Positions 3,869 through 14,947 of a stretch of 57,580 bases of DNA are shown piece after piece. Under the pieces are notes generated by a model, which worked only from the letters and a program-made list of their open reading frames with translations, was not told the DNA's origin and ran no database searches. A program made the position numbers and the translations under genes. The DNA comes from Chromatiales bacterium. Lineage in GTDB: Bacteria > Pseudomonadota > Gammaproteobacteria > Thiohalospirales > Thiohalospiraceae. How positions within the stretch are numbered: the stretch's first letter is position 1; every line of letters starts with the position of its first letter. The stretch is from positions 1 to 57,580 of the forward strand of contig JALSHD010000128.1 in the NCBI GenBank assembly GCA_026982395.1, read 5' to 3'.

Positions 3869-5200
3869 CTACCTGCCGATTCCGCGGTAGTCGAATCCCA
3901 TCGAGGTTACCTGTTCCGGATCATACTGGTTGCGGCCATCGAAGATGGCGCTGCCTTTCATCAGCTCCTTCAGGCGGGCAAAGTCCGGGTTGCGGAACGG
4001 TTTCCATTCGGTGATCAGGATCAGCGCATCCGTGTCCGGAAAGACGTCATACTCGTTGTCCACCAGCTGCAGATGGTTGTGTTCGAACCACTCCGCGGGC
4101 AGCTCCCTGCGGGCGACATCCATGGCGACGGGATCATAGGCCTTTATCCTTGCGCCCTGGCCGATCAGATCATGCAGCAGTACCTTGGAAGGTGCTTCGC
4201 GCATGTCGTCGGTGCCCGGTTTGAACGCCAGCCCCCATAACGCAAAGGTCAGTCTACTCAAATCCTTGCCGTAGTAATCGGTAATCTTTTCGAACAGCCG
4301 GTGTTTCTGCAGGTTGTTGCGATCCTCTACCGCACGCAGCACCTTCGGTTCGATCTCATGCTCTTCCGCCATCCGGATCAGTGCCTTGACATCCTTGGGG
4401 AAGCAGGAGCCGCCATAACCGGCACCCGGATAGATAAAGGAGAAACCGATGCGGTTGTCAGAGCCGATTCCGCGGCGCACATTCTCCACATCCACGCCCA
4501 TTGCATCACACAGCCGGGCAATCTCGTTCATGAAGGAGATCTTGGTGGCGAGCATGGAGTTGGCGGTGTATTTGGTCATTTCGGCATCGCGCACACCCAT
4601 TATGACAGTGCGTTCGTGATTGCGATTGAAGGGAGCATACAGGTCGCGCATGATCTTGCTGGCCCGCTTACTGTCGGAGCCGATGACAATCCGATCCGGG
4701 TACATGAAGTCGTCGATGGCGGCGCCCTCCTTGAGGAATTCCGGATTGCTTACCACATCAAAATCGATAGACACCCCCCGTTTTTTCAACTCCTCTTCGA
4801 TGACCGCACGTACTTTATCGGCGGTGCCAACGGGAACGGTGGATTTATCCACCACCACACAGTAATCGCTCATATGTTGACCGATTTCGCGGGCGACGCC
4901 GAGAACATACTGCAGATCGGCAGAACCATCTTCCCCGGGTGGAGTTCCGACTGCGATAAAATAGACGTTGGAGCCTTCCATCGCTTCCGCCAGTGAGGTG
5001 GTAAAGTGCAGCCGTCCTTGCTGATGGTTTTTAAGCACCAAAGGCTCCAGACCTGGCTCATAAATAGGCAACACTCCGTTTTTCAGGCCATCAATCTTCG
5101 CCTGATCGATATCCACACAGGTAACCGTGGTGCCCATCTCCGCAAAACAGGTACCGGTTACCAAGCCAACGTAACCCGTTCCGACAACAGCAATTTTCAT
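3869..5200 (-). CDS. ugd: UDP-glucose 6-dehydrogenase
   Basis: A 443-residue NAD-dependent enzyme that oxidises UDP-glucose twice to UDP-glucuronate, a precursor for LPS, capsule or amino-arabinose sugars. The Rossmann motif GTGYVGLVTG is at 7-16. The catalytic cysteine is C266 in YGGSCFPKD, and the STVPVGT and NPEFLKEGAA segments are present. It is transcribed divergently from waaA across a 196-bp AT-rich gap. The 3' end abuts a foldback element. Length and motifs are normal for the family. Confidence 0.96.
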   Translation of the reverse strand: MKIAVVGTGYVGLVTGTCFAEMGTTVTCVDIDQAKIDGLKNGVLPIYEPGLEPLVLKNHQQGRLHFTTSLAEAMEGSNVYFIAVGTPPGEDGSADLQYVLGVAREIGQHMSDYCVVVDKSTVPVGTADKVRAVIEEELKKRGVSIDFDVVSNPEFLKEGAAIDDFMYPDRIVIGSDSKRASKIMRDLYAPFNRNHERTVIMGVRDAEMTKYTANSMLATKISFMNEIARLCDAMGVDVENVRRGIGSDNRIGFSFIYPGAGYGGSCFPKDVKALIRMAEEHEIEPKVLRAVEDRNNLQKHRLFEKITDYYGKDLSRLTFALWGLAFKPGTDDMREAPSKVLLHDLIGQGARIKAYDPVAMDVARRELPAEWFEHNHLQLVDNEYDVFPDTDALILITEWKPFRNPDFARLKELMKGSAIFDGRNQYDPEQVTSMGFDYRGIGR

Positions 5201-5396: not shown

Positions 5397-6656
5397 ATGG
5401 GTCAATATGGCTCTCGGAGTTTGTTGGGTTACCGCTTGGCGTGGTATCTGTTGACTCCGGTGGTGCTGACGGCCAATGCCTGGCAGGCGTTCCGGGCGGG
5501 GGAGGTGCGTCTGTTCTGGCAGCGTCTGGGGCTGGCGCTGCCCTCCCGGAGAGATGCACCGCTGTGGCTGCATGTTGCCTCGGTGGGGGAGTTGATGGCG
5601 GTTCTGCCACTGATTGCCGCTCTTCGGAAACGTTATTCCCATGTTCCCCTGCTGGTGACCACCTTCACTCCTACGGCTGCCAAGGTGGCCGCTGACCGGT
5701 TGCCGTCCGGAGTGCCACACCTCTATTTTCCCCTGGACTGGCCCGGAGCCACCCGGCGTTTTCTGCGCGCTGTCCGGCCCCGTGCCGCTCTCATCGTGGA
5801 GACCGAGCTATGGCCCAACTTGTTTGCGCGTGCATTTCATGAGGCGGTTCCACTACTCATTATCAATGGACGCCTTTCTTCCCGTACCTCGGGTACGCGG
5901 GGCTGGATCCGGCGCCTCTATGTCGGCTGTCTTCAGTCTGTGACCGCTGTTCTGGCTCGAAGCGAGCAGGATGCCGATGCCTATATCCAGCTGGGGGCAG
6001 CTCCGGAACGGGTGCAGACTCTCGGCAACATCAAATTTGCCCCGCCACCTGAGCACGGGCAGACTGAGCCCGTCGAGTTGGGCCGGCCCTATCTGTTGGC
6101 TGCATCCACCCATGATGATGAAGAGCGCCAACTGGCTGCTGTCTGGCAGGGGCTGGAGCGTGGTGCCCACCTCCTGGTCATCGCCCCCCGTCATCCTGGA
6201 CGGAGGGAAGCGATCCTGCAGGAGTTGCGGTCGTTGAAGATGGAGGTGGCCGTGCGCAGCCGGGGAGAGCCGGTAACCGTTACTACGGAGATCTATCTTG
6301 TCGATACGCTGGGGGAGATGGAGGGGTTTATGGCGGGTGCCCGGCTGGTGTTTATGGGTGGTTCGCTGGTGGCGCGGGGGGGACACAATATTCTGGAACC
6401 GGCGCGCCTGGGCAGGCCGATCCTGTTTGGTCCGCATATGGACAATTTTCGCCAGGAGAGTGCACTGTTGCTGCAGGAAGAAGCGGCGCTTCAGGTGGAT
6501 ACGGTTGATGAGCTGGCGTCTGTTCTGCAATGGGCTTTGGATGGCAAAGTGTCGATCGAGCGTCTGGGTACCAATGCCCGGCGGGTTATGAGCCGTCAGG
6601 GGAATGTGTTGGAACGTTATCTGGAGGTGATTGGGCATTACTGCAATAGGGAGTAG
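5397..6656 (+). CDS. waaA: 3-deoxy-D-manno-octulosonic acid transferase
   Basis: A GT30 glycosyltransferase of 419 residues that adds Kdo from CMP-Kdo to lipid A precursor at the inner face of the inner membrane. An N-terminal hydrophobic anchor (LAWYLLTPVVLTANAW) is followed by the family segments WLHVASVGE, LIVETELWPN, NGRLSSRT and, near the C-terminus, FMGGSLVARGGHNILEPA. A GGAG ribosome-binding site lies about 11 bp before the ATG. A Kdo kinase gene lies downstream in convergent orientation, which suggests a single, phosphorylated Kdo. Confidence 0.95.
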   Translation: MGQYGSRSLLGYRLAWYLLTPVVLTANAWQAFRAGEVRLFWQRLGLALPSRRDAPLWLHVASVGELMAVLPLIAALRKRYSHVPLLVTTFTPTAAKVAADRLPSGVPHLYFPLDWPGATRRFLRAVRPRAALIVETELWPNLFARAFHEAVPLLIINGRLSSRTSGTRGWIRRLYVGCLQSVTAVLARSEQDADAYIQLGAAPERVQTLGNIKFAPPPEHGQTEPVELGRPYLLAASTHDDEERQLAAVWQGLERGAHLLVIAPRHPGRREAILQELRSLKMEVAVRSRGEPVTVTTEIYLVDTLGEMEGFMAGARLVFMGGSLVARGGHNILEPARLGRPILFGPHMDNFRQESALLLQEEAALQVDTVDELASVLQWALDGKVSIERLGTNARRVMSRQGNVLERYLEVIGHYCNRE

Positions 6657-6907: not shown

Positions 6908-7621
6908 TCATTCGCGCCAACCTGCCAGCAAGGCCTGCCAGCCATCATCATCAAAGTAGAACCGGGGGTGTTGGCGCGAGAGTTTATCCAGTGAGCGGTG
7001 CAGGCGGGTGAGGTTGCCCTGTTGCCAGTTGCTGTTGTCCGTGCGGATCCCCCCCTTGTCGAAGTCGATGAGATGGAATTTCCCTGTGGGGTCCAGCAGG
7101 ATGTTATGGGCGTTGAGGTCGGCATGGTACACCCCCCGTTTGTGGAAACGCTGGATGCATTTGCCTGCATCGTGCCACTCTCCTTCGTTCAGCGGGGCGG
7201 TCTGCAACCGTTGTGACAGCGGTTGGCCGTATTCAATACGCCGGGTGATCAGATCGGCCTGGTAGAATGGCCCGCGGGTTATCACTCGGGCTGCCGCTGG
7301 CCGGGGAACCGGCAGATTCAGCTCAACCAGTTTCGCTAGCAGGTGCCATTCGCGCCAGGCGCGGCTTTGTGACAGGGGGGATCGCAGGTAGCGGTCTCCC
7401 AGCAGGATAGCAATCCGACCGCCGCGGCGATAGTGACGCAGTACGTATTGCTCTCCTTCCAGCTCGATAAAATGGGTGGTACCGCGCCCCTCTGCCGAAC
7501 CGCGCAGCGCGCCGGCCTGTTTCAGTTGCCGGGGTTCAAACAGGTGGGGTCCGGCATTGGGTAGAAGCTCCGCATCGTAGAGAATGTGCTGCGTACCACA
7601 CTGCTTTTCGGTAGGATTCAT
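6908..7621 (-). CDS. kdkA: 3-deoxy-D-manno-octulosonic acid kinase
   Basis: A 237-residue small kinase of the KdkA/RfaP superfamily that phosphorylates the 4-position of the lipid A-linked Kdo. The kinase loop HADLNAHNILLD and the metal-binding segment LIDFDKGG are visible, with the N-terminal RHYRRGGRIAILLGDRYL typical of KdkA. It is transcribed divergently from the GT9 gene. KdkA is found where a single Kdo is made and phosphorylated (as in Haemophilus and Vibrio), which fits the adjacent waaA. Confidence 0.92.
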   Translation of the reverse strand: MNPTEKQCGTQHILYDAELLPNAGPHLFEPRQLKQAGALRGSAEGRGTTHFIELEGEQYVLRHYRRGGRIAILLGDRYLRSPLSQSRAWREWHLLAKLVELNLPVPRPAAARVITRGPFYQADLITRRIEYGQPLSQRLQTAPLNEGEWHDAGKCIQRFHKRGVYHADLNAHNILLDPTGKFHLIDFDKGGIRTDNSNWQQGNLTRLHRSLDKLSRQHPRFYFDDDGWQALLAGWRE

Positions 7622-7649
7622 TCAAGAGGTCCAAAAAGGGAAGAGATTA

Positions 7650-8753
7650 TTGTTCATCAGTCGATCCAGTCTGCTGCCGTTTGCATCGGCCCCCGATAGT
7701 TTGTGTATTCTGCGCTTGTCTGCCGTTGGGGATATCTGCCACACCCTGCCGGTGGTACGCAGTATCCAGCGTCAGTGGCCGGAAACCCGTATTACCTGGG
7801 TCATCGGCAAGCTCGAGGCTGGTCTGGTGGGTGATATCCCTGGTATAGAGTTTATCATCTTCGACAAGAGCCGCGGGTATCGGGCCTATGCCGATCTGCG
7901 CCGTGTCATGCGCGGGCGCCGTTACGAAGCCCTGTTGCAGATGCAGGTGTCACTGCGCGCCAGTATCGCCAGCCTGTTGATTCCAGCTCCTGTCCGGCTC
8001 GGCTTCGACCGGGCGCGCGCCCGGGATTTTCAGTGGTTGTTTACCAACGCACGTATCCCCACCCGATCCCGCCAGCACGTCATGGATGGTCTGTTCGGTT
8101 TTGCCGAGACGCTGGGGGTGTCGGATCTGACCCCGGTCTGGGATATTCCTGTTCCCGCCGAGGCTGCCGGTTTTGCCCGCAAATGGATCTCTGATAAAGA
8201 GCAGACCCTGGTTATCAGTCCCTGCTCCAGCAACCGAGTTCGCAACTGGCGCAACTGGAGCGCCGAGGGTTATGCCCGTGTGGTGGATCATGTTGCGGAA
8301 AGATACGGGATGAAGAGTCTGCTTACCGGCGGCCCCACTCAGCTGGAGCAGGAGTACGGTGAGCAGATTTGCGCGCTGGCGCAGCATACCCCGGTCAATC
8401 TTGTTGGCAAGACCAGCCTGAAACAGCTGCTGGCCATTATTCAGCGCGCTACGGTGCTTATCTCTCCGGATTCCGGTCCGGCCCATATGGCCACCACCGC
8501 AGGTACGCCGGTGATCGGACTCTATGCCACCTCCAATCCGGATCGTACCGGTCCCTGGCTGAGCCGGCAGTGGGTGGTGAACAGGTATCCCGAGGCATTG
8601 CGGGAGGAGCTGGGCATGGATGTCGAGCAGGCTCCCTGGGGTAAACGGGTGCGCAATCCCGAGGCTATGCAGAGGATCACTGTCGAGGATATTCAGGAAA
8701 AACTGGAGCAGATAATGGCGGAGGTGGGGCTTGGTTGTCCCGGCAACGGTTGA
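7650..8753 (+). CDS. GT9 family glycosyltransferase (ADP-heptose:LPS heptosyltransferase-like)
   Basis: A GT9-family transferase likely to add heptose from ADP-heptose to the LPS inner core. The N-terminus has LCILRLSAVGDICHTLPVV, the family signature. The C-terminal donor-binding region has LISPDSGPAHMATTAGTPVIG. The chosen start is TTG at 7650, preceded by GGGAAGAG at 7637-7644; this gives 367 residues. An ATG at 7584 is in frame but would overlap the start of divergent kdkA. Whether it is the first, second or another heptosyltransferase cannot be decided by eye, so no symbol is given. Confidence 0.88.
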   Translation: MFISRSSLLPFASAPDSLCILRLSAVGDICHTLPVVRSIQRQWPETRITWVIGKLEAGLVGDIPGIEFIIFDKSRGYRAYADLRRVMRGRRYEALLQMQVSLRASIASLLIPAPVRLGFDRARARDFQWLFTNARIPTRSRQHVMDGLFGFAETLGVSDLTPVWDIPVPAEAAGFARKWISDKEQTLVISPCSSNRVRNWRNWSAEGYARVVDHVAERYGMKSLLTGGPTQLEQEYGEQICALAQHTPVNLVGKTSLKQLLAIIQRATVLISPDSGPAHMATTAGTPVIGLYATSNPDRTGPWLSRQWVVNRYPEALREELGMDVEQAPWGKRVRNPEAMQRITVEDIQEKLEQIMAEVGLGCPGNG

Positions 8754-8884: not shown

Positions 8885-10765
8885 ATGTTATCGTCGCACG
8901 CCAAAATTTCTCCCGACTCTCATCCAGGTTCCTCCTCTTCTGGCCGTGCTGCGCTACTGCGCTGGGCCGGATGGTTTTTTCTGGGCAACGCGGGTATCGC
9001 GCTGCTGATTTCGCTGCGTTACCTGGGGGCAGTTCGCCTTCCCGATGGGGAGTATGCGCTGCTGTTTAGTGTGCTGGCGTTTATCGGCCATTTCGCCTCG
9101 CTGGGGTTCATCGGGGCGTTGCTGCTTTTTCTGCCCATTTTGATTCTGCCTTACCGGAGGCTGGCCTTTTTCCTTGGTATCGTCCTGGCCACGCTGTTCA
9201 TTCTCGGGATCACCATTGATACCTTTATCTTCAGCCAGTACCGCTTTCACCTGAACGGCATGGTACTGAATCTGCTACTGGGTGGAGCTGCCGAGGAGAT
9301 CTTTACCTTCTCCGGGATTATGTGGGGAATCGCACTGCTGTTCCTTGTGGCTCTGGTTGCTGCCGAATGGTGGCTGGCGCGGAGTGTGTGGCGTTTCGTA
9401 CAGGCTACTCCGGGGCGTCCGCATGGCTATCTGGTGGGTTCCATTTTGTTTACAGTGTTTCTGGCCCAGAACATCATGTATGCTTGGGCCGATGCCACCT
9501 CCTATACCCCTATCACCAAGCAGATCCGGCTTTTGCCAGCTTACCAGCCGCTCACCGCCAAGCGCTGGTTTGTGAAGCATGGCTGGGTGGATCTCGATGC
9601 CAGACCGGTGCTCTCCCGTATCGATAAATCCAGCAGCCTGGATTACCCTAAGCACCCCTTGCGCTGTGAGGCTTCCGCCAAGCCGTTGAACATCCTTTAT
9701 CTCGTTATCGATTCGTGGCGTTTTGACGCGATGACCGAGCGCATTACGCCCAATGTCCACCGGCTGGCGCAGGAGAGTCTGGTGTTCGAAGATCACTACA
9801 GTGGCGCCAACTCCACCCGCACCGGCATATTTACTCTGTTCTATGGTCTGCCTGGAACCTACTGGCACGCCATGCTGGCCGAGCAGCGGGGATCGGTATT
9901 CGTAGAGCAGTTGATGGCACTGGGCTACCGTCTGGGGATTTTCGCCAGCGCCAAGCTTTTCAGCCCGGAGTTCGACCGAACGGTATTCGCTGCAGTGGAG
10001 GATCTGCGGGTGCGCTCCAGTGGAGATACGCCGCGGGAGCGGGATCAGAACATCACCGACGAATTCATTGATTTCCTGGATGGTACTGAACAGCCCTTTT
10101 TCGGTTTCCTGTTTTATGATTCACCGCATGGCTACGACTTTCCGCCCGACTATCCGCTGGTATTCCAGCCCAGTTGGGGAGCGGTGAACTACCTGTTGCT
10201 CGACAATGACTTCGACCGTACGCCGTTTTTCAACCGCTACAAGAATTCGGTCCACTATGTGGACAGTCTGGTGGGGCGGGTGTTCAAGCGGCTGGAGCAT
10301 AGGGGAATGCTGGAGAAAACTGTCATTGTCATCACCGGTGACCATGGGCAGGAGTTCAATGATAACAAGCTCAACTACTGGGGACACAACAGTAACTTCT
10401 CTCCCTGGCAGACCCGCGTGCCGCTGGTGATACACTGGCCCGGAAAAGAGCCGCGCCATATCCGGCACCAGACCAGCCACTTCGACATCACTCCCACCAT
10501 GATGCATGATATATTGGGGTGCAGTAATGAGATGCAGGAGTACAGCAGCGGCAAGCATCTTTTCGAGGACGAACCGGAGCCCTATCTGCTGCTTAGCAGT
10601 TACGGCCAGTTTGCGGTAATGGAGCCGGATCGCATCACCGTGGTGGATGAGTTCGGTAACGTGGACATTCTGGGGCAGGATTACCGTGAAATTCCTGGCG
10701 CTGCTTTGCCCACGGAACGGATGCGTTCAGTTATGGAGGAGATGAGCCGGTTTTATGCTCGTTGA
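8885..10765 (+). CDS. lapC: Inner-membrane LPS homeostasis protein LapC (YejM/PbgA), DUF3413 plus sulfatase-like domain
   Basis: A 626-residue protein with an N-terminal membrane part (about five transmembrane segments within residues 22-200) and a periplasmic alkaline-phosphatase-like domain (about 260-610). The segments LVIDSWRFDAM, GIFTLFYGLPG, ITGDHGQEFND and NYWGHNSNFSPWQ match the YejM/PbgA family, which senses periplasmic LPS and controls LpxC degradation through LapB. It heads a run with two Glyphos_transf-family genes. A phosphoglycerol transferase role was considered, but the YejM-specific segments argue for LapC. Confidence 0.88.
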   Translation: MLSSHAKISPDSHPGSSSSGRAALLRWAGWFFLGNAGIALLISLRYLGAVRLPDGEYALLFSVLAFIGHFASLGFIGALLLFLPILILPYRRLAFFLGIVLATLFILGITIDTFIFSQYRFHLNGMVLNLLLGGAAEEIFTFSGIMWGIALLFLVALVAAEWWLARSVWRFVQATPGRPHGYLVGSILFTVFLAQNIMYAWADATSYTPITKQIRLLPAYQPLTAKRWFVKHGWVDLDARPVLSRIDKSSSLDYPKHPLRCEASAKPLNILYLVIDSWRFDAMTERITPNVHRLAQESLVFEDHYSGANSTRTGIFTLFYGLPGTYWHAMLAEQRGSVFVEQLMALGYRLGIFASAKLFSPEFDRTVFAAVEDLRVRSSGDTPRERDQNITDEFIDFLDGTEQPFFGFLFYDSPHGYDFPPDYPLVFQPSWGAVNYLLLDNDFDRTPFFNRYKNSVHYVDSLVGRVFKRLEHRGMLEKTVIVITGDHGQEFNDNKLNYWGHNSNFSPWQTRVPLVIHWPGKEPRHIRHQTSHFDITPTMMHDILGCSNEMQEYSSGKHLFEDEPEPYLLLSSYGQFAVMEPDRITVVDEFGNVDILGQDYREIPGAALPTERMRSVMEEMSRFYAR

Positions 10766-10786: not shown

Positions 10787-11845
10787 ATGGTTCTTTCATA
10801 CTATCTGATCAAGCATCCCTACAGCGTGATTTGGCATTTGAAGCGCTGGTTGGGGAAGGGCGAAGGCGTCGTGCTCTACTGCGCCAATACGCTGGACTAT
10901 CATATATTTGCCCCAATACAGAAACATCTCAAACCGTTGCCGGTTGTTGCCAGGAACAGGAAGGCTCAGCAGGAGTTGCGTGCTATCGGAGTGGAGGCTT
11001 CGCGTCTTCCCTGTTTCCCGGAAGGGGTTATCATGTGCCGGCAGGCGGCGTATCGGTTTCCTGCGAAGGCCATCGTGAAGATCGGCGTGAGTCATGGTGC
11101 CTACAATTTCAAGCCATTTGCCAGCGCCGAAAGCCACAATTTGCTGGACTGCTACTTCATGACCAGCAGTACCGATGTGGAAAATGCCCGTAAGGCGGGT
11201 ATTCGCAGCGCCGTTGCCGTGGGTTATCCGAAACTCGATCCTGCATTCGATGGTACCTATGACGAGACATACCTGAACCGGCTGCGTAGTAAACTGAAAC
11301 TCGATCCGGCGAAGAAAACCCTCCTGTTCACCGCAACCTGGGACAGGTCTGGACAATCCGCCATCGAACGATGGGCAGACAGGCTGGAACAGTTTACGTA
11401 CCGGTACAATGTTATGGTAACGCTCCATCCCTGGACCTCTGTCCGTTTTGTTGCTGCAATCGAGAAAACTCCCGGCGTGTTCTTTATCCGTGGTTACGAT
11501 ATCGTGGCGCATATCATGTTGGCCGATGTCTGCATCGGTGACACCAGCTCCATTCTCGGTGAGTGTTGTGCTCTGGACAAACCGATTATCAGTTTCAAAG
11601 TTCCTCCCGGAAAACGGACCGTCTCCCATGTTCACGAGATGATTCGGGACTTCACCCTGCAGATCGAAACCTTTTCACAACTGGAAGAGGCCATTCAACA
11701 ATGCCTTGATTCCCCTTGGGAAAAACAGGCTCAGCGGGCTGCCGCCAACCAGATCATGTTCGACAAACTGGATGGACAGGCTGGAAAACGGGCAGCGGAG
11801 GAGATTCTGAAACGGCTTCCCCGGCTGCGCAAGGCGGCGAATTGA
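10787..11845 (+). CDS. CDP-glycerol glycerophosphotransferase-family protein (first of a tandem pair)
   Basis: A 352-residue protein of the Glyphos_transf fold (GT-B-like), the family of teichoic acid glycerophosphotransferases. Visible family features are GVSHGAYNFKP, VGYPKLDPAF, LLFTATWDRSG, TLHPW and ADVCIGDTSSILGE. In Gram-negatives such proteins can transfer glycerophosphate or related groups to surface glycans; acceptor and donor here are unknown. It follows lapC by 21 bp and overlaps the next, related gene by one base (TGATG), so the pair is translationally coupled. Its position in an LPS locus suggests LPS core or O-chain decoration (inference). Confidence 0.78.
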   Translation: MVLSYYLIKHPYSVIWHLKRWLGKGEGVVLYCANTLDYHIFAPIQKHLKPLPVVARNRKAQQELRAIGVEASRLPCFPEGVIMCRQAAYRFPAKAIVKIGVSHGAYNFKPFASAESHNLLDCYFMTSSTDVENARKAGIRSAVAVGYPKLDPAFDGTYDETYLNRLRSKLKLDPAKKTLLFTATWDRSGQSAIERWADRLEQFTYRYNVMVTLHPWTSVRFVAAIEKTPGVFFIRGYDIVAHIMLADVCIGDTSSILGECCALDKPIISFKVPPGKRTVSHVHEMIRDFTLQIETFSQLEEAIQQCLDSPWEKQAQRAAANQIMFDKLDGQAGKRAAEEILKRLPRLRKAAN

Positions 11846-12885
11846 TGCGGTACCTTCTTTTTGTGACCAAACTCTACGGTTATGCCATTGCCCGGCCTGT
11901 GCAAGAGGCGGCACTTCGTCGCGGAGACGAGGTTGCCTGGTTCGTTTTTGGTGTAGATGCCGGTCATCTTCGTGATTCGGAAAAACGATTGCAGAGTGTT
12001 GTGGAGGTGATGGGCTATCATCCGGATGCCGTGTTTGCATGCAGTAACTGGGTGCCCGATTTTTTTCCTGGTGCCAAGATCCAGCTGTTTCACGGCTTCA
12101 ATGCCCAAAAGCGGAATGGAGATGTGGGGCATTTTCGCATTCGTGGTTGGTTCGATCTGTATTGTACTCAGGGTCCCAGTACAACGCCTGTATTTCAAAA
12201 GCTGGCGCTACGGCACGCTCATTTCCATGCCATCGAGACCGGCTGGCCAAAAATGGATCCGCTTTTTCAGCAAGAAAATCTGTTGGAGTTTCGTGGAAAC
12301 GGTGGAATTGACCGTCCTGTTGTTCTCTATACATCCACTTTCAGCCGACAGCTCACGGCAGCACCGTATTTACGGGATACCATTGCGCAGTTGTCAAAAA
12401 AGGGGCGTTGGCACTGGCTGGTCAACCTGCATCCTAAGATGGATCCTGCCATCGTGGCTTCATACAGGGAGATGGCGGGGGAGAATCTGACCTTCGTTGA
12501 AACGGACAATGTCATCCCCTTGCTTAAGGCGGCTGACGTTATGGTGTCCGACACTTCATCCATCATATTTGAGTTCATGCTTCAGGAGAAGCCGGTGGTT
12601 ACCTTTCGACATCGGCGTCCTGGGCCTCATCTTCTGGATATTCAGAGAGCCAGTGAGCTGGAAGAGGCAATTGAAATCGCGCTTGCCCGTCCCGCAAAGC
12701 TGATGACCGAAGTGCGCCGGTATTCCGACTGGCTTCACCCATACCGGGATGGCAGATCTGCGGAGCGGGTACTGGACGCCACGGAAGGATTTCTCCACGG
12801 GGAATATGGGAAGCTTGAAAGGAAACCTTTGAACCTTTGGCGCAAACTGGCTATACGTCGTGAGCTGGGTTACTATCGGTGGTGA
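11845..12885 (+). CDS. CDP-glycerol glycerophosphotransferase-family protein (second of a tandem pair)
   Basis: A 346-residue relative of the preceding gene, with the same landmarks in the same order: LFHGFNAQKR, TGWPKMDPLF, VLYTSTFSR, NLHPKMD and ADVMVSDTSSIIFEFMLQEKPVV. The start ATG overlaps the previous stop by one base. The C-terminus (LNLWRKLAIRRELGYYRW) is basic and aromatic, as if membrane-associated. The two paralogues are diverged enough to suggest different acceptors or sequential steps. The gene ends 8 bp from the convergent waaL fusion. The true substrate is not readable from sequence. Confidence 0.78.
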   Translation: MRYLLFVTKLYGYAIARPVQEAALRRGDEVAWFVFGVDAGHLRDSEKRLQSVVEVMGYHPDAVFACSNWVPDFFPGAKIQLFHGFNAQKRNGDVGHFRIRGWFDLYCTQGPSTTPVFQKLALRHAHFHAIETGWPKMDPLFQQENLLEFRGNGGIDRPVVLYTSTFSRQLTAAPYLRDTIAQLSKKGRWHWLVNLHPKMDPAIVASYREMAGENLTFVETDNVIPLLKAADVMVSDTSSIIFEFMLQEKPVVTFRHRRPGPHLLDIQRASELEEAIEIALARPAKLMTEVRRYSDWLHPYRDGRSAERVLDATEGFLHGEYGKLERKPLNLWRKLAIRRELGYYRW

Positions 12886-12892
12886 CTTCTGC

Positions 12893-14947
12893 TCAGTGAG
12901 GCCGTGAACGCGTATTGAGACGGGCTTCACGGCGCAGTGCCCAAAGGGCGGCATATTTATTGAAGGCTCCCTGGGCGTAGGTCACCGCTACGACGAACCC
13001 CGGTGCTCCGTCCAGGAATCCGAGGCGAAAGAGATAGATCTGGATAAAGGTCAACACCGAGCGTAACGCCGCTCCTGGCAGGCCGCCGCCCCATCTCCCG
13101 GTTGCAAACCGCTTCTGTCCACCCAGCCATGCGTATTTTGCGCTTTTTTGCAGGGCGTGGCCGTAGTTGCGATGAGTATAGTGCAGCAAACGTCCTCTCA
13201 GGATTCCCGTCTTCCCCGGCGGGAGCACCACGTGCTCATGTACCTGGGCATCGGTAAAGTGTGCGCCCTCGCGTCTGAAGAGACGCAGTGGCGCGCGGGC
13301 GCTGCGTCCAAAGTCCAGTCGTTTGCCGTAGACCACTACCGCCCACGGCAGGCGATAGGCGATATACTCGGGACGTTCCCCGAGGGCTGCGTCGATGTCG
13401 TGGCGCAATTCGGGCGTCACCCGCTCGTCGGCATCGATGGAGAGCACCCAGTCGCAGCCGGCCTTCTCCAGTGCGCGCTGTTTCTGCGGGCCATATCCGG
13501 GCCAGTCGGTCTGGAATACCTTGTCGGTATAGCGACGGGCAATTTCCACGGTATTGTCGGTAGAGCCGCTGTCCAGCACAATGACCTCGTCGGCCCAGCC
13601 AGCGACCGATTGCAGACAGGGCTCGATGCGATCAGTTTCATCCTGAGCAATGATGATAGCCGAGAGGGTCTGTCGGCGTTCGGCGGGCGTATTGCGGTTC
13701 GTCTGGCGTTGTATCTGTACTGCTGCGAACAGTACCGCCATATAGAAGGTGAAGAAGCTCACCGGCAGGTTGCGTTCGAAGATGGCTTCCGACAATCCGA
13801 AACAGACAAAGGCCACCAGGAGCAGGATACCGGCCAGAGCCAGCTGACTGACAACGGGGTCTTTCCCCTGTCGGCGGACATCGGCAAACAGTTTGATGGG
13901 GATGGCAAACAGCAGCACAATGGCCACGAAGGCGATGAGCCCCCCGTTGGCGAGTGCCGAAAGAAACTGATTGTGTGGATGTCCCCAGTCGGCTGCTGAG
14001 GGATTGCGCACGCCGGTATCCACCAGTAGCTGCGCGTGCTCCTTGTAGTTTCCCCAGCCTACCCCGGACAGCGGATTCTCCCGGAAGATCTGCCATGCCG
14101 CTTGCCACATCTCGAAGCGTGTGCCGATGGATGTCTCGCGAATGGGGGCATCTATATCGCTGTGAAAATAACCTGAAATATTGTTTACAGTGCGTTCAAC
14201 GGTGTCTTTGACCCCCGTTGCAGGAATCAGGTAGGCGGCAAGCAGCACGGCAGCCAGCAGCAGAACGGCCGTCCATCGCTGGCGGAGGGGAATATGATTC
14301 CGGGCAAACCAGAGGAACACCAGCATCAGGAAGGGGATTGCCACCCAACTGCCACGGGCATGAGCCAGCAAACTGGCCAGCAGCCCACAGAGTGCGGCCA
14401 GAATCGGTAGTGCAATCTGCCATCGGGAGCGGGAGGCAAACCACCCCAGCCCAGCCAGGGACATTACTCCCATTGCCAGTGACAGATCTCCGAAGATGAT
14501 CGGATGAGTTACGCCACTGGCACGAAACCCCGGTGGCTGGCCCCACACCTCAATCAGCGCTGTAACAGCTGCAACCACGGCACCCCCGACCAGCCCGTAC
14601 CAGAGCGCCGCCAGGCTGATGCCCGCACGACGCAAGAACAGGTAGGCAGGAACTGCCAGCAACAGATGGAGAAATTTGTTGAGTTTCTTGACCCCATCGT
14701 TGTCGATGCCGCCAAGCAACGTTGTGCCCAGGGCTGCCAGAAAAAAAACGCTGAATGCGAAATAGAACAGCTTCTCGTCCCGGCCCGCGGGCTCGGTTCC
14801 GTGCCTATAGAGAACCCAAAACCCTCCCAGGGCGAACAGAACCAGCCCGATACTGTCGACGGTGGCCAGTAGCAGAATAAGTGCCGGATAGAGAAATATC
14901 GCCACAGCTGCGAAGTGGCGGGCATTACCGTGGGTGGTCGATGGCAT
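12893..14947 (-). CDS. O-antigen ligase (WaaL/Wzy_C) fused to a GT2 glycosyltransferase
   Basis: A single uninterrupted 684-residue frame holds two proteins. Residues about 10-415 are a polytopic membrane domain with the O-antigen ligase/polymerase signature: LLAHARGSW at 194-201, NPLSGVGWGNY and WGHPHNQFLSALANGG at 321-336, with the conserved H325. Residues about 425-684 are a WaaE/KdtX-like GT2 domain: SAIIIAQDE, VIVLDSGSTDNT and SIDADERV (metal-binding DxD). The ligase attaches O-chains to lipid A-core in the periplasm, while GT2 enzymes of this type add a core hexose in the cytoplasm. The start ATG is at 14947. Confidence 0.85.
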   Translation of the reverse strand: MPSTTHGNARHFAAVAIFLYPALILLLATVDSIGLVLFALGGFWVLYRHGTEPAGRDEKLFYFAFSVFFLAALGTTLLGGIDNDGVKKLNKFLHLLLAVPAYLFLRRAGISLAALWYGLVGGAVVAAVTALIEVWGQPPGFRASGVTHPIIFGDLSLAMGVMSLAGLGWFASRSRWQIALPILAALCGLLASLLAHARGSWVAIPFLMLVFLWFARNHIPLRQRWTAVLLLAAVLLAAYLIPATGVKDTVERTVNNISGYFHSDIDAPIRETSIGTRFEMWQAAWQIFRENPLSGVGWGNYKEHAQLLVDTGVRNPSAADWGHPHNQFLSALANGGLIAFVAIVLLFAIPIKLFADVRRQGKDPVVSQLALAGILLLVAFVCFGLSEAIFERNLPVSFFTFYMAVLFAAVQIQRQTNRNTPAERRQTLSAIIIAQDETDRIEPCLQSVAGWADEVIVLDSGSTDNTVEIARRYTDKVFQTDWPGYGPQKQRALEKAGCDWVLSIDADERVTPELRHDIDAALGERPEYIAYRLPWAVVVYGKRLDFGRSARAPLRLFRREGAHFTDAQVHEHVVLPPGKTGILRGRLLHYTHRNYGHALQKSAKYAWLGGQKRFATGRWGGGLPGAALRSVLTFIQIYLFRLGFLDGAPGFVVAVTYAQGAFNKYAALWALRREARLNTRSRPH

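Follow-up and report, generated by a model that had tools for sequence, protein, structure and literature searches.

Two TagF-superfamily proteins of a Chromatiales lipopolysaccharide core locus as candidate transferases for a donor other than a CDP-alditol

The wall teichoic acid enzymes TarL, TagF, TarF, and TagB belong to family PF04464, the cytidine diphosphate (CDP)-glycerol transferases. For TagF, one histidine is described as the likely base and another as holding the pyrophosphate (PMC11666461, PMC5974469); for CgoT, R607 is listed among the active-site residues shared with TagF, and H609 is given as essential (PMC11666461). TagF-like domains that transfer hexose-1-phosphate are also established (PMC5974469; also PMC11666461). 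Here, we analyzed two genes of this superfamily, A and B, which lie side by side in a lipopolysaccharide (LPS) locus within a 57,580-nucleotide stretch of DNA (the window, to whose positions all coordinates refer) from a Chromatiales bacterium (GenBank assembly GCA_026982395.1, contig JALSHD010000128.1). Judging from their sequences, we lean modestly toward reading A and B as glycosyltransferase B (GT-B) type transferases of the LPS core, whose donor would not be a CDP-alditol and would most likely be a uridine diphosphate (UDP)-sugar. The CDP-glycerol label of both proteins is probably wrong in the source genome.

The original prediction, which described the pair as two diverged Glyphos_transf paralogues overlapping by one base, was accurate on this point. 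At the A/B junction (AATTGATG), the TGA stop codon of A (11843-11845) shares its last base with the ATG of B (11845-11847), and since the two proteins are only about 31% identical, and this over part of their length only, they are strongly diverged. Both exceed the curated PF04464 cut-off of 22.1 bits (Table 1), with the match covering only the C-terminal, donor-half part of the 367-position profile (positions 151-366 for A and 143-292 for B). The TagF-type HG, H-P, and D-x-S-S motifs are kept in both proteins: A carries HG 103-104, GYPKLD 146-151, TATW 182-185, T212, H214, and SS 254-255, and B carries HG 83-84, GWPKMD 133-138, TSTF 163-166, N194, H196, and SS 238-239. When 36 proteins (21 B, 6 A, and 9 members of a third transferase group, C7) are aligned together, the catalytic-type columns coincide, and the positions of the TagF catalytic residues H444 and H584 and of the Ser-Ser pair are occupied by H83, H196, and S238-S239 in B and by H103, H214, and S254-S255 in A. 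Profile matches to TarL reached 7.6e-11 for the B family and 8.3e-13 for A combined with C7. Each protein is a single unit of about 350 amino acids (aa) without a second domain match in the Pfam search, a build that makes teichoic-type polymerization unlikely and does not support the suggestion that A and B are teichoic acid-type polymerases.

The supply of donor nucleotides was assessed in the source assembly (G000; 2.72 Mb, 193 contigs, 96.87% complete, 1.52% contaminated), in which A and B are the two PF04464 matches. Searches with PF01467 and TIGR01518 did not find the glycerol-3-phosphate cytidylyltransferase TagD in this 96.87% complete assembly: the four PF01467 matches were read from sequence as the housekeeping proteins CoaD, NadD, HldE, and RibF, and TIGR01518 matched HldE alone (48.2 bits). 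TarI was likewise not found, as PF01128 retrieved only two IspD copies, each beside IspF (TarJ was not searched), and a nucleotidyltransferase family that recurs in related loci, C19, is absent from the assembly. On these PF01467, TIGR01518, and PF01128 results, a supply of CDP-glycerol by a recognizable enzyme was rejected. The lack of a tagD gene noted earlier for the window thus extends to the whole assembly. The original prediction had placed glycerophosphate on the LPS and had itself named the lack of a CDP-glycerol pathway in the genome as the observation that would speak against this; such a lack is what we found in the assembly, so glycerophosphate as the transferred group is not supported, while its statement that the donor is open stands.

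Other nucleotidyltransferases of the source genome were read in the same way. PF12804 (10 matches) and PF00483 (5 matches) retrieved overlapping sets that comprise MobA-, MocA-, and MurU-like proteins, two IspD, KdsB, GlgC, GalU, and two more sugar-nucleotide enzymes. One is a glucose-1-phosphate cytidylyltransferase (450.6 bits on TIGR02623, cut-off of 300.25), and the other is a sugar nucleotidyltransferase of the CBS type, whose gene has NeuC- and NeuA-like neighbors. CDP-glucose is the sole CDP-sugar identifiable in this genome, and nothing links it to A or B. The NeuC-like, CBS-type, and NeuA-like genes lie on contig 166, where their sequences read as a nonulosonate pathway, perhaps for legionaminate; the glucose-1-phosphate cytidylyltransferase gene lies on contig 150. 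Two near-alike ispD-ispF neighborhoods on contigs 35 and 44 suggest a bin composed of sequences from two related strains or species. PF07994 (inositol-phosphate synthase) had no match in any of 22 genomes, which is not a valid negative, since one of them, G207, has a TIGR03450-type gene; inositol-phosphate synthase beyond PF07994 and phosphoenolpyruvate (PEP) mutase were not searched in the source genome. TIGR01518 found no HldE in three genomes of family f13, nor in G284 and G147 despite their family 9 glycosyltransferase, so that nothing is concluded about ADP-heptose as a donor of B.

In a sample of 369 gammaproteobacterial genomes, source genome included, B occurs in 17, the 16 other copies being 46 to 70% identical over most of their length; matches below these are about 30% identical or short pieces, such as a 46% contig-end piece in G369. 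Three further B orthologues come from the source genus (G005, G006, and G007), and none was found in G001 of the same genus. A is rarer: it is present, at 58% identity or higher, in 4 of the 369 genomes, again with the source included, and the A orthologues total six when the source, G005, and G006 are counted, the five others being 58 to 79% identical. The two nearest relatives are metagenome-assembled genomes (Gammaproteobacteria bacterium isolate Dive96_bin10.234 and Chromatiales bacterium isolate 356-308_metabat1_scaf2bin.075). G005, G006, and G207 share the A-B order of the source, and G155 has the two genes in divergent orientation, a recurrence beyond chance; in 15 of 20 gammaproteobacterial loci, B stands without A. 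In 12 of the 20, B adjoins a glycosyltransferase family 2 (GT2) or ligase(-GT2) gene, and in 16, at most three genes lie between, the exceptions being G154, G283, G155, and G356. B thus keeps a conserved place among LPS-core genes, mostly in loci that lack A; the LPS setting proposed earlier for the pair is supported.

Outside the sample, a B homolog (34 to 35% identity) was found in Bacteroides finegoldii record NZ_OY725904.1, with glycosyltransferases, a 3-deoxy-D-manno-octulosonic acid (Kdo)/WaaP-type kinase, and a class V aminotransferase as neighbors and a CTP_transf_like gene one gene further. This 114-kb record, labeled plasmid 2, carries mnmA, rnc, and fabF beside polysaccharide genes and may be a chromosome piece rather than a plasmid. 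Viral contigs held no relatives of B and one weak (24%) relative of the A/C7 alignment, and plasmid records gave no match for A.

The 36 aligned proteins fall into two donor-region subclasses. The K-type, which comprises all nine C7 proteins and four B proteins (from G007, G191, G356, and B. finegoldii), has a lysine two positions before the second histidine and a proline in the motif [YF]APT[FY] in 13 of 13 members. Both features are missing from the T-type in 23 of 23 members, namely, 17 B proteins and all six A proteins, those of the source genome included; here, T, N, or Q occupies the lysine column (N194 in source B and T212 in source A), and S or A occupies the proline column. From the profile searches, we infer that the K/R column corresponds to R607 of CgoT. 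The loci were then scanned with eight seed proteins, the flanks being of varying length and G005, G006, and G203 being short contigs. Leaving HldE aside, seven of nine K-type loci carried a nucleotidyltransferase (of a TagD-like, phosphonate, inositol-phosphate, or different type); the two without one, G067 contig 2 and G203 contig 97, represent the same locus in two sister species. None of the 16 T-type-only loci held a relative of those nucleotidyltransferases, although the count rises to one if the sugar-1-phosphate type nucleotidyltransferase located 3 kb from the G147 B gene is included; HldE itself occurs in two of them (G030 and G164). Fisher tests that ignore relatedness gave 7.5e-5 for seven of nine against none of 16 and 5.4e-4 with G147 counted. 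That A and B lack two donor-region features of relatives with nucleotidyltransferase loci counts further against glycerophosphate, although two control proteins, described below, weaken one of the features.

The C7 proteins, which are 21 to 25% identical to A, occur in the LPS loci of other genomes together with donor-making genes. In G003, C7 is accompanied by a PEP mutase-nucleotidyltransferase fusion (TIGR02320, 383 bits) and a phosphonopyruvate decarboxylase (TIGR03297, 422.7 bits), both above cut-off; these two genes and a second nucleotidyltransferase gene all lie between a lapC-like gene and C7 (L026:2259-8044), a gene content that predicts a phosphonate on the LPS core. In G207, the genes for C7, an inositol-phosphate synthase (TIGR03450, 446 bits, below the cut-off of 638), an inositol-1-phosphate cytidylyltransferase-like protein (NF041135, 132 bits, below the cut-off of 580), A, and B follow one another on one strand (L064:4400-9767), from which inositol phosphate on the core would be predicted. 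Nucleotidyltransferase C19 accompanies C7 in G007, G191, and G067 and is high scoring in only these 3 of 22 genomes; in G007, a LicD-type gene directly precedes B, C7, and C19 (L027:456-3959), a possible phosphocholine-type module. Beside its C7 gene (L076:1-1961), G356 encodes a protein that combines HIT-like and CTP_transf_like parts; a separate TagD-like gene (132.5 bits, below the cut-off of 165.4), some 7 kb off, overlaps B by 4 bases (L076:9061-10517). Between the ligase fusion and a helix-turn-helix gene, G203 has an A orthologue alone, and its congener G067 has C19 and C7 in that place; each of the two genomes has another C7 elsewhere. The LPS-core locus thus looks like a slot in which transferases are swapped together with different donor cassettes (inositol phosphate, phosphonate, or TagD-like). 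We consider this swapping a more interesting lead than the A-B pair itself, with predictions that are testable by mass spectrometry of the core.

For A and B, we propose that both would modify the LPS core during its cytoplasmic assembly, ahead of export and of ligation to the O-antigen, and that they would draw on a nucleotide donor from the cell's existing supply, a UDP-sugar being the likeliest. In this scenario, B would modify the inner core built by the neighboring GT2-type enzyme, and A would add a second, optional group. The transferred group is perhaps a sugar or a sugar phosphate. As both histidines and the Ser-Ser pair are kept, the reaction could follow TagF-type chemistry with a UDP-sugar or be an ordinary glycosyl transfer; between the two products, we slightly prefer a glycoside to a sugar-1-phosphate diester, which would result from a TagF-type attack on the beta-phosphate.

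A number of observations weigh against this proposal, and part of them would fit a different one, namely, that the group which A and B move from a CDP donor onto the core is glycerol phosphate or another alditol phosphate, the cytidylyltransferase being unrecognized or encoded in the roughly 3% by which the assembly falls short of complete. Such an activity would agree with the PF04464 match and the TagF-type motifs, with the CTP_transf_like gene near the B. finegoldii homolog, and with the glycerol 3-phosphate that Cps7A, a PF04464 protein of the CpsA group, is reported to place on Kdo (PMC11666461). The residue rule itself has exceptions among 10 control proteins of the PF04464 type from plasmid records (L150, with no annotated gene under the match, and L146 and L149, cut by the region edge, were left out): at the lysine column, seven have K or R, one is unreadable by motif, and two have T, one from Parabacteroides and one from Pontibacillus, the latter encoded divergently beside tagD. 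The basic residue therefore does not define the family, and its loss alone does not exclude CDP-glycerol; the proline is kept in all eight controls in which the motif was found, and loss of both features together was not seen among the controls. Donor genes also stand close to some A and B orthologues. The TagD-like gene of G356 overlaps B, although a B of the K-type. T-type proteins have such neighbors too: A of G207 comes immediately after the gene for the inositol-1-phosphate cytidylyltransferase-like protein, and B of G003 lies one gene away from the phosphonate cassette, although both loci also contain a K-type C7. Three of the 17 T-type B genomes (G023, G175, and G354) have a TagD-like gene (152 to 160 bits, cut-off of 165.4) outside the B locus, and a cytidylyltransferase-like protein of about 150 aa (57 to 68 bits on TIGR01518) occurs in four more of the 17 (G006, G154, G266, and G361; 59 to 68 bits) as well as in G067 and G203; G006 (66 bits) and G203 (63 bits) are two of the six A-bearing genomes. 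This small protein carries a GTFDLLHVGH-type motif. In the B profile search, UDP-N-acetylglucosamine (UDP-GlcNAc) 2-epimerases rank ahead of TagF itself. Moreover, the T-type B proteins form one side of a single tree branch (support 99/98), so that the switch in B is one event, with A as a separate clade in the same state. We nevertheless regard a CDP-alditol donor as unlikely in view of the missing TagD, TarI, and C19 matches in the source genome, the donor-region residues of A and B, and the complete or near-complete T-type B genomes, such as G030 (one contig) and G283, that have no TagD-like match except HldE.

Two further alternatives are narrower versions of the UDP-sugar proposal, and their probabilities overlap with it. 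B, and perhaps A, may be an ordinary GT-B glycosyltransferase that forms a glycosidic bond in the core, with PF04464 reflecting a remote fold resemblance, which we consider a real but minority possibility. The second-best Pfam family of both proteins is PF02350 (UDP-GlcNAc 2-epimerase), which B matches just above cut-off (31.4 versus 30.6 bits). AlphaFold2 models built from three alignment rows per protein are of low confidence (mean predicted local distance difference test scores of 51.8 and 48.9), and with them, Foldseek supports a GT-B type fold at most, with TagF as the top match for A and a UDP-GlcNAc 2-epimerase for B. In addition, a Xanthomonas hortorum gene with a B-like annotation, a core glycosyltransferase gene, and a ligase-like gene are reported to score like O-antigen genes under phage selection, as if the core backbone were cut short (PMC12573098). 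Against a mere fold resemblance stand the profiles of both families, which match TarL and Cps3D best, and the conserved catalytic-type histidines and Ser-Ser pair. Alternatively, T-type B could transfer hexuronate 1-phosphate from UDP-galacturonate or UDP-glucuronate and be responsible for galacturonyl phosphates like those of the Xanthomonas core. The locus contains a UDP-glucose dehydrogenase type gene, a possible UDP-hexuronate source, whose relatives also lie beside waaA in G005 (98% identical) and G003 (88%). The core of Xanthomonas campestris pv. campestris is described as carrying galacturonyl phosphate on Kdo and mannose, with a little-known biosynthesis (PMC8042644), and the X. hortorum gene, matched by annotation only, again lies beside core glycosyltransferase and ligase-like genes (PMC12573098). 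Among the 17 T-type B genomes, 16 have a nucleotide-sugar dehydrogenase (substrate type checked in some only), but the remaining one, G164, has a B orthologue and no such match, and the K-type B genomes G007, G191, and G356 have dehydrogenase matches as well, so the trait does not discriminate. The review itself speculates on a lipid-linked galacturonide donor (PMC8042644). We judge this alternative very improbable. For A, UDP-hexuronate was rejected as a donor, because G203 has an A orthologue but only a TviB-type dehydrogenase.

The UDP-sugar reading of A and B could be carried further. T-type A and B would then be a branch that switched from CDP-alditols to UDP-sugars and that writes sugar-1-phosphate diesters on the inner core, with B as the missing family behind hexose- and hexuronate-phosphates such as the galacturonyl phosphates of Xanthomonas; in this full form, we think it quite unlikely.

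The genes around the pair are listed in Table 1. The original prediction placed the pair between lapC and a ligase fusion. The position is correct, and the gene at 12893-14947 is a real fusion, with the Wzy_C and GT2 domains matched in one open reading frame (ORF); the upstream gene, however, scores only 292.5 bits against the NCBIfam LapC/YejM model NF038282 (cut-off of 825), so that lapC-like is a safer label than lapC. In G005 and G006, too, a relative immediately precedes the pair. The ligase-GT2 fusion family (C5) adjoins B in G003, G005, and G006 and is two genes off in G007, and in several other genomes, the GT2 is a separate gene (C6). Relatives of similar length to the fusion occur in G003, G005, G006, G007, G067, G191, and G207, and G164 has the ligase part only.

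Table 1. Genes of the LPS-core locus, with positions in the window and profile scores
Feature	Position	Strand	Evidence and remarks
UDP-glucose 6-dehydrogenase type nucleotide-sugar dehydrogenase	3869-5200	-	TIGR03026 458.1 bits, above cut-off; TuaD model 490.2 bits, below cut-off of 700
Kdo transferase WaaA/KdtA	5397-6656	+	PF04413 189.5 bits; NF004388 329.7 bits, below cut-off of 438
Kdo kinase	6908-7621	-	NF002475 276 bits (cut-off 142); PF06293 149.1 bits
Family 9 (heptosyltransferase-type) glycosyltransferase	7584-8753	+	PF01075 144.6 bits; TIGR02193 105.4 bits, below cut-off
YejM/PbgA(LapC)-like inner-membrane protein	8885-10765	+	DUF3413 189.8 bits; Sulfatase 142.6 bits; 21 bases upstream of gene A
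Gene A, TagF-superfamily transferase, rare C10 group	10787-11845	+	PF04464 52.2 bits; ATG start, 352 aa
Gene B, TagF-superfamily transferase, LPS-core C0 group	11845-12885	+	PF04464 56.1 bits; ATG start, 346 aa
O-antigen ligase (Wzy_C) fused to GT2 glycosyltransferase	12893-14947	-	Wzy_C 82.6 bits; Glycos_transf_2 55.4 bits

Compared with the systems described so far, the A-B pair is a Gram-negative, LPS-core variant of the TagF superfamily. With TarL, TagF, TarF, and TagB, A and B share the donor half of the GT-B fold and the HG, H-P, and D-x-S-S motifs; they differ from these enzymes in being one unit of about 350 aa without a polymerase module, encoded in an LPS-core locus, in lacking the K/R and the proline of the APT motif, and in coming from a genome in which no CDP-polyol synthesis was found. 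The TagF-like capsule polymerases of Gram-negative bacteria are multidomain proteins that combine a TagF-like with a second glycosyltransferase domain and are encoded in capsule loci, whereas A and B are single-domain proteins of the core locus. Closer in build is Cps7A, a CpsA transition transferase, described as a single GT-B protein of 380 residues that acts on Kdo; unlike A and B, it belongs to a capsule locus, transfers glycerol 3-phosphate, and has a tyrosine in place of the HG histidine (PMC11666461), so that the base histidine is not universal. Finally, X. hortorum XHV734_4495, a putative CDP-glycerol glycerophosphotransferase, resembles B in its annotation and its locus-number neighbors rather than by sequence comparison (PMC12573098). 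Its locus number adjoins those of a core glycosyltransferase and a ligase-like gene, and insertions in it are reported as enriched under phage selection, with log2 fold changes of 9.1 to 9.2 for the three genes, like those of O-antigen export genes (PMC12573098); XHV734_4495 and -4497 are also named as a small LPS cluster (PMC9040725). By analogy, these scores suggest a role in core completion. Superfamily proteins are annotated as CDP-glycerol glycerophosphotransferases in Gram-negative bacteria such as X. hortorum and B. finegoldii, and if our subclass split is right, part of these annotations predict the wrong chemistry.

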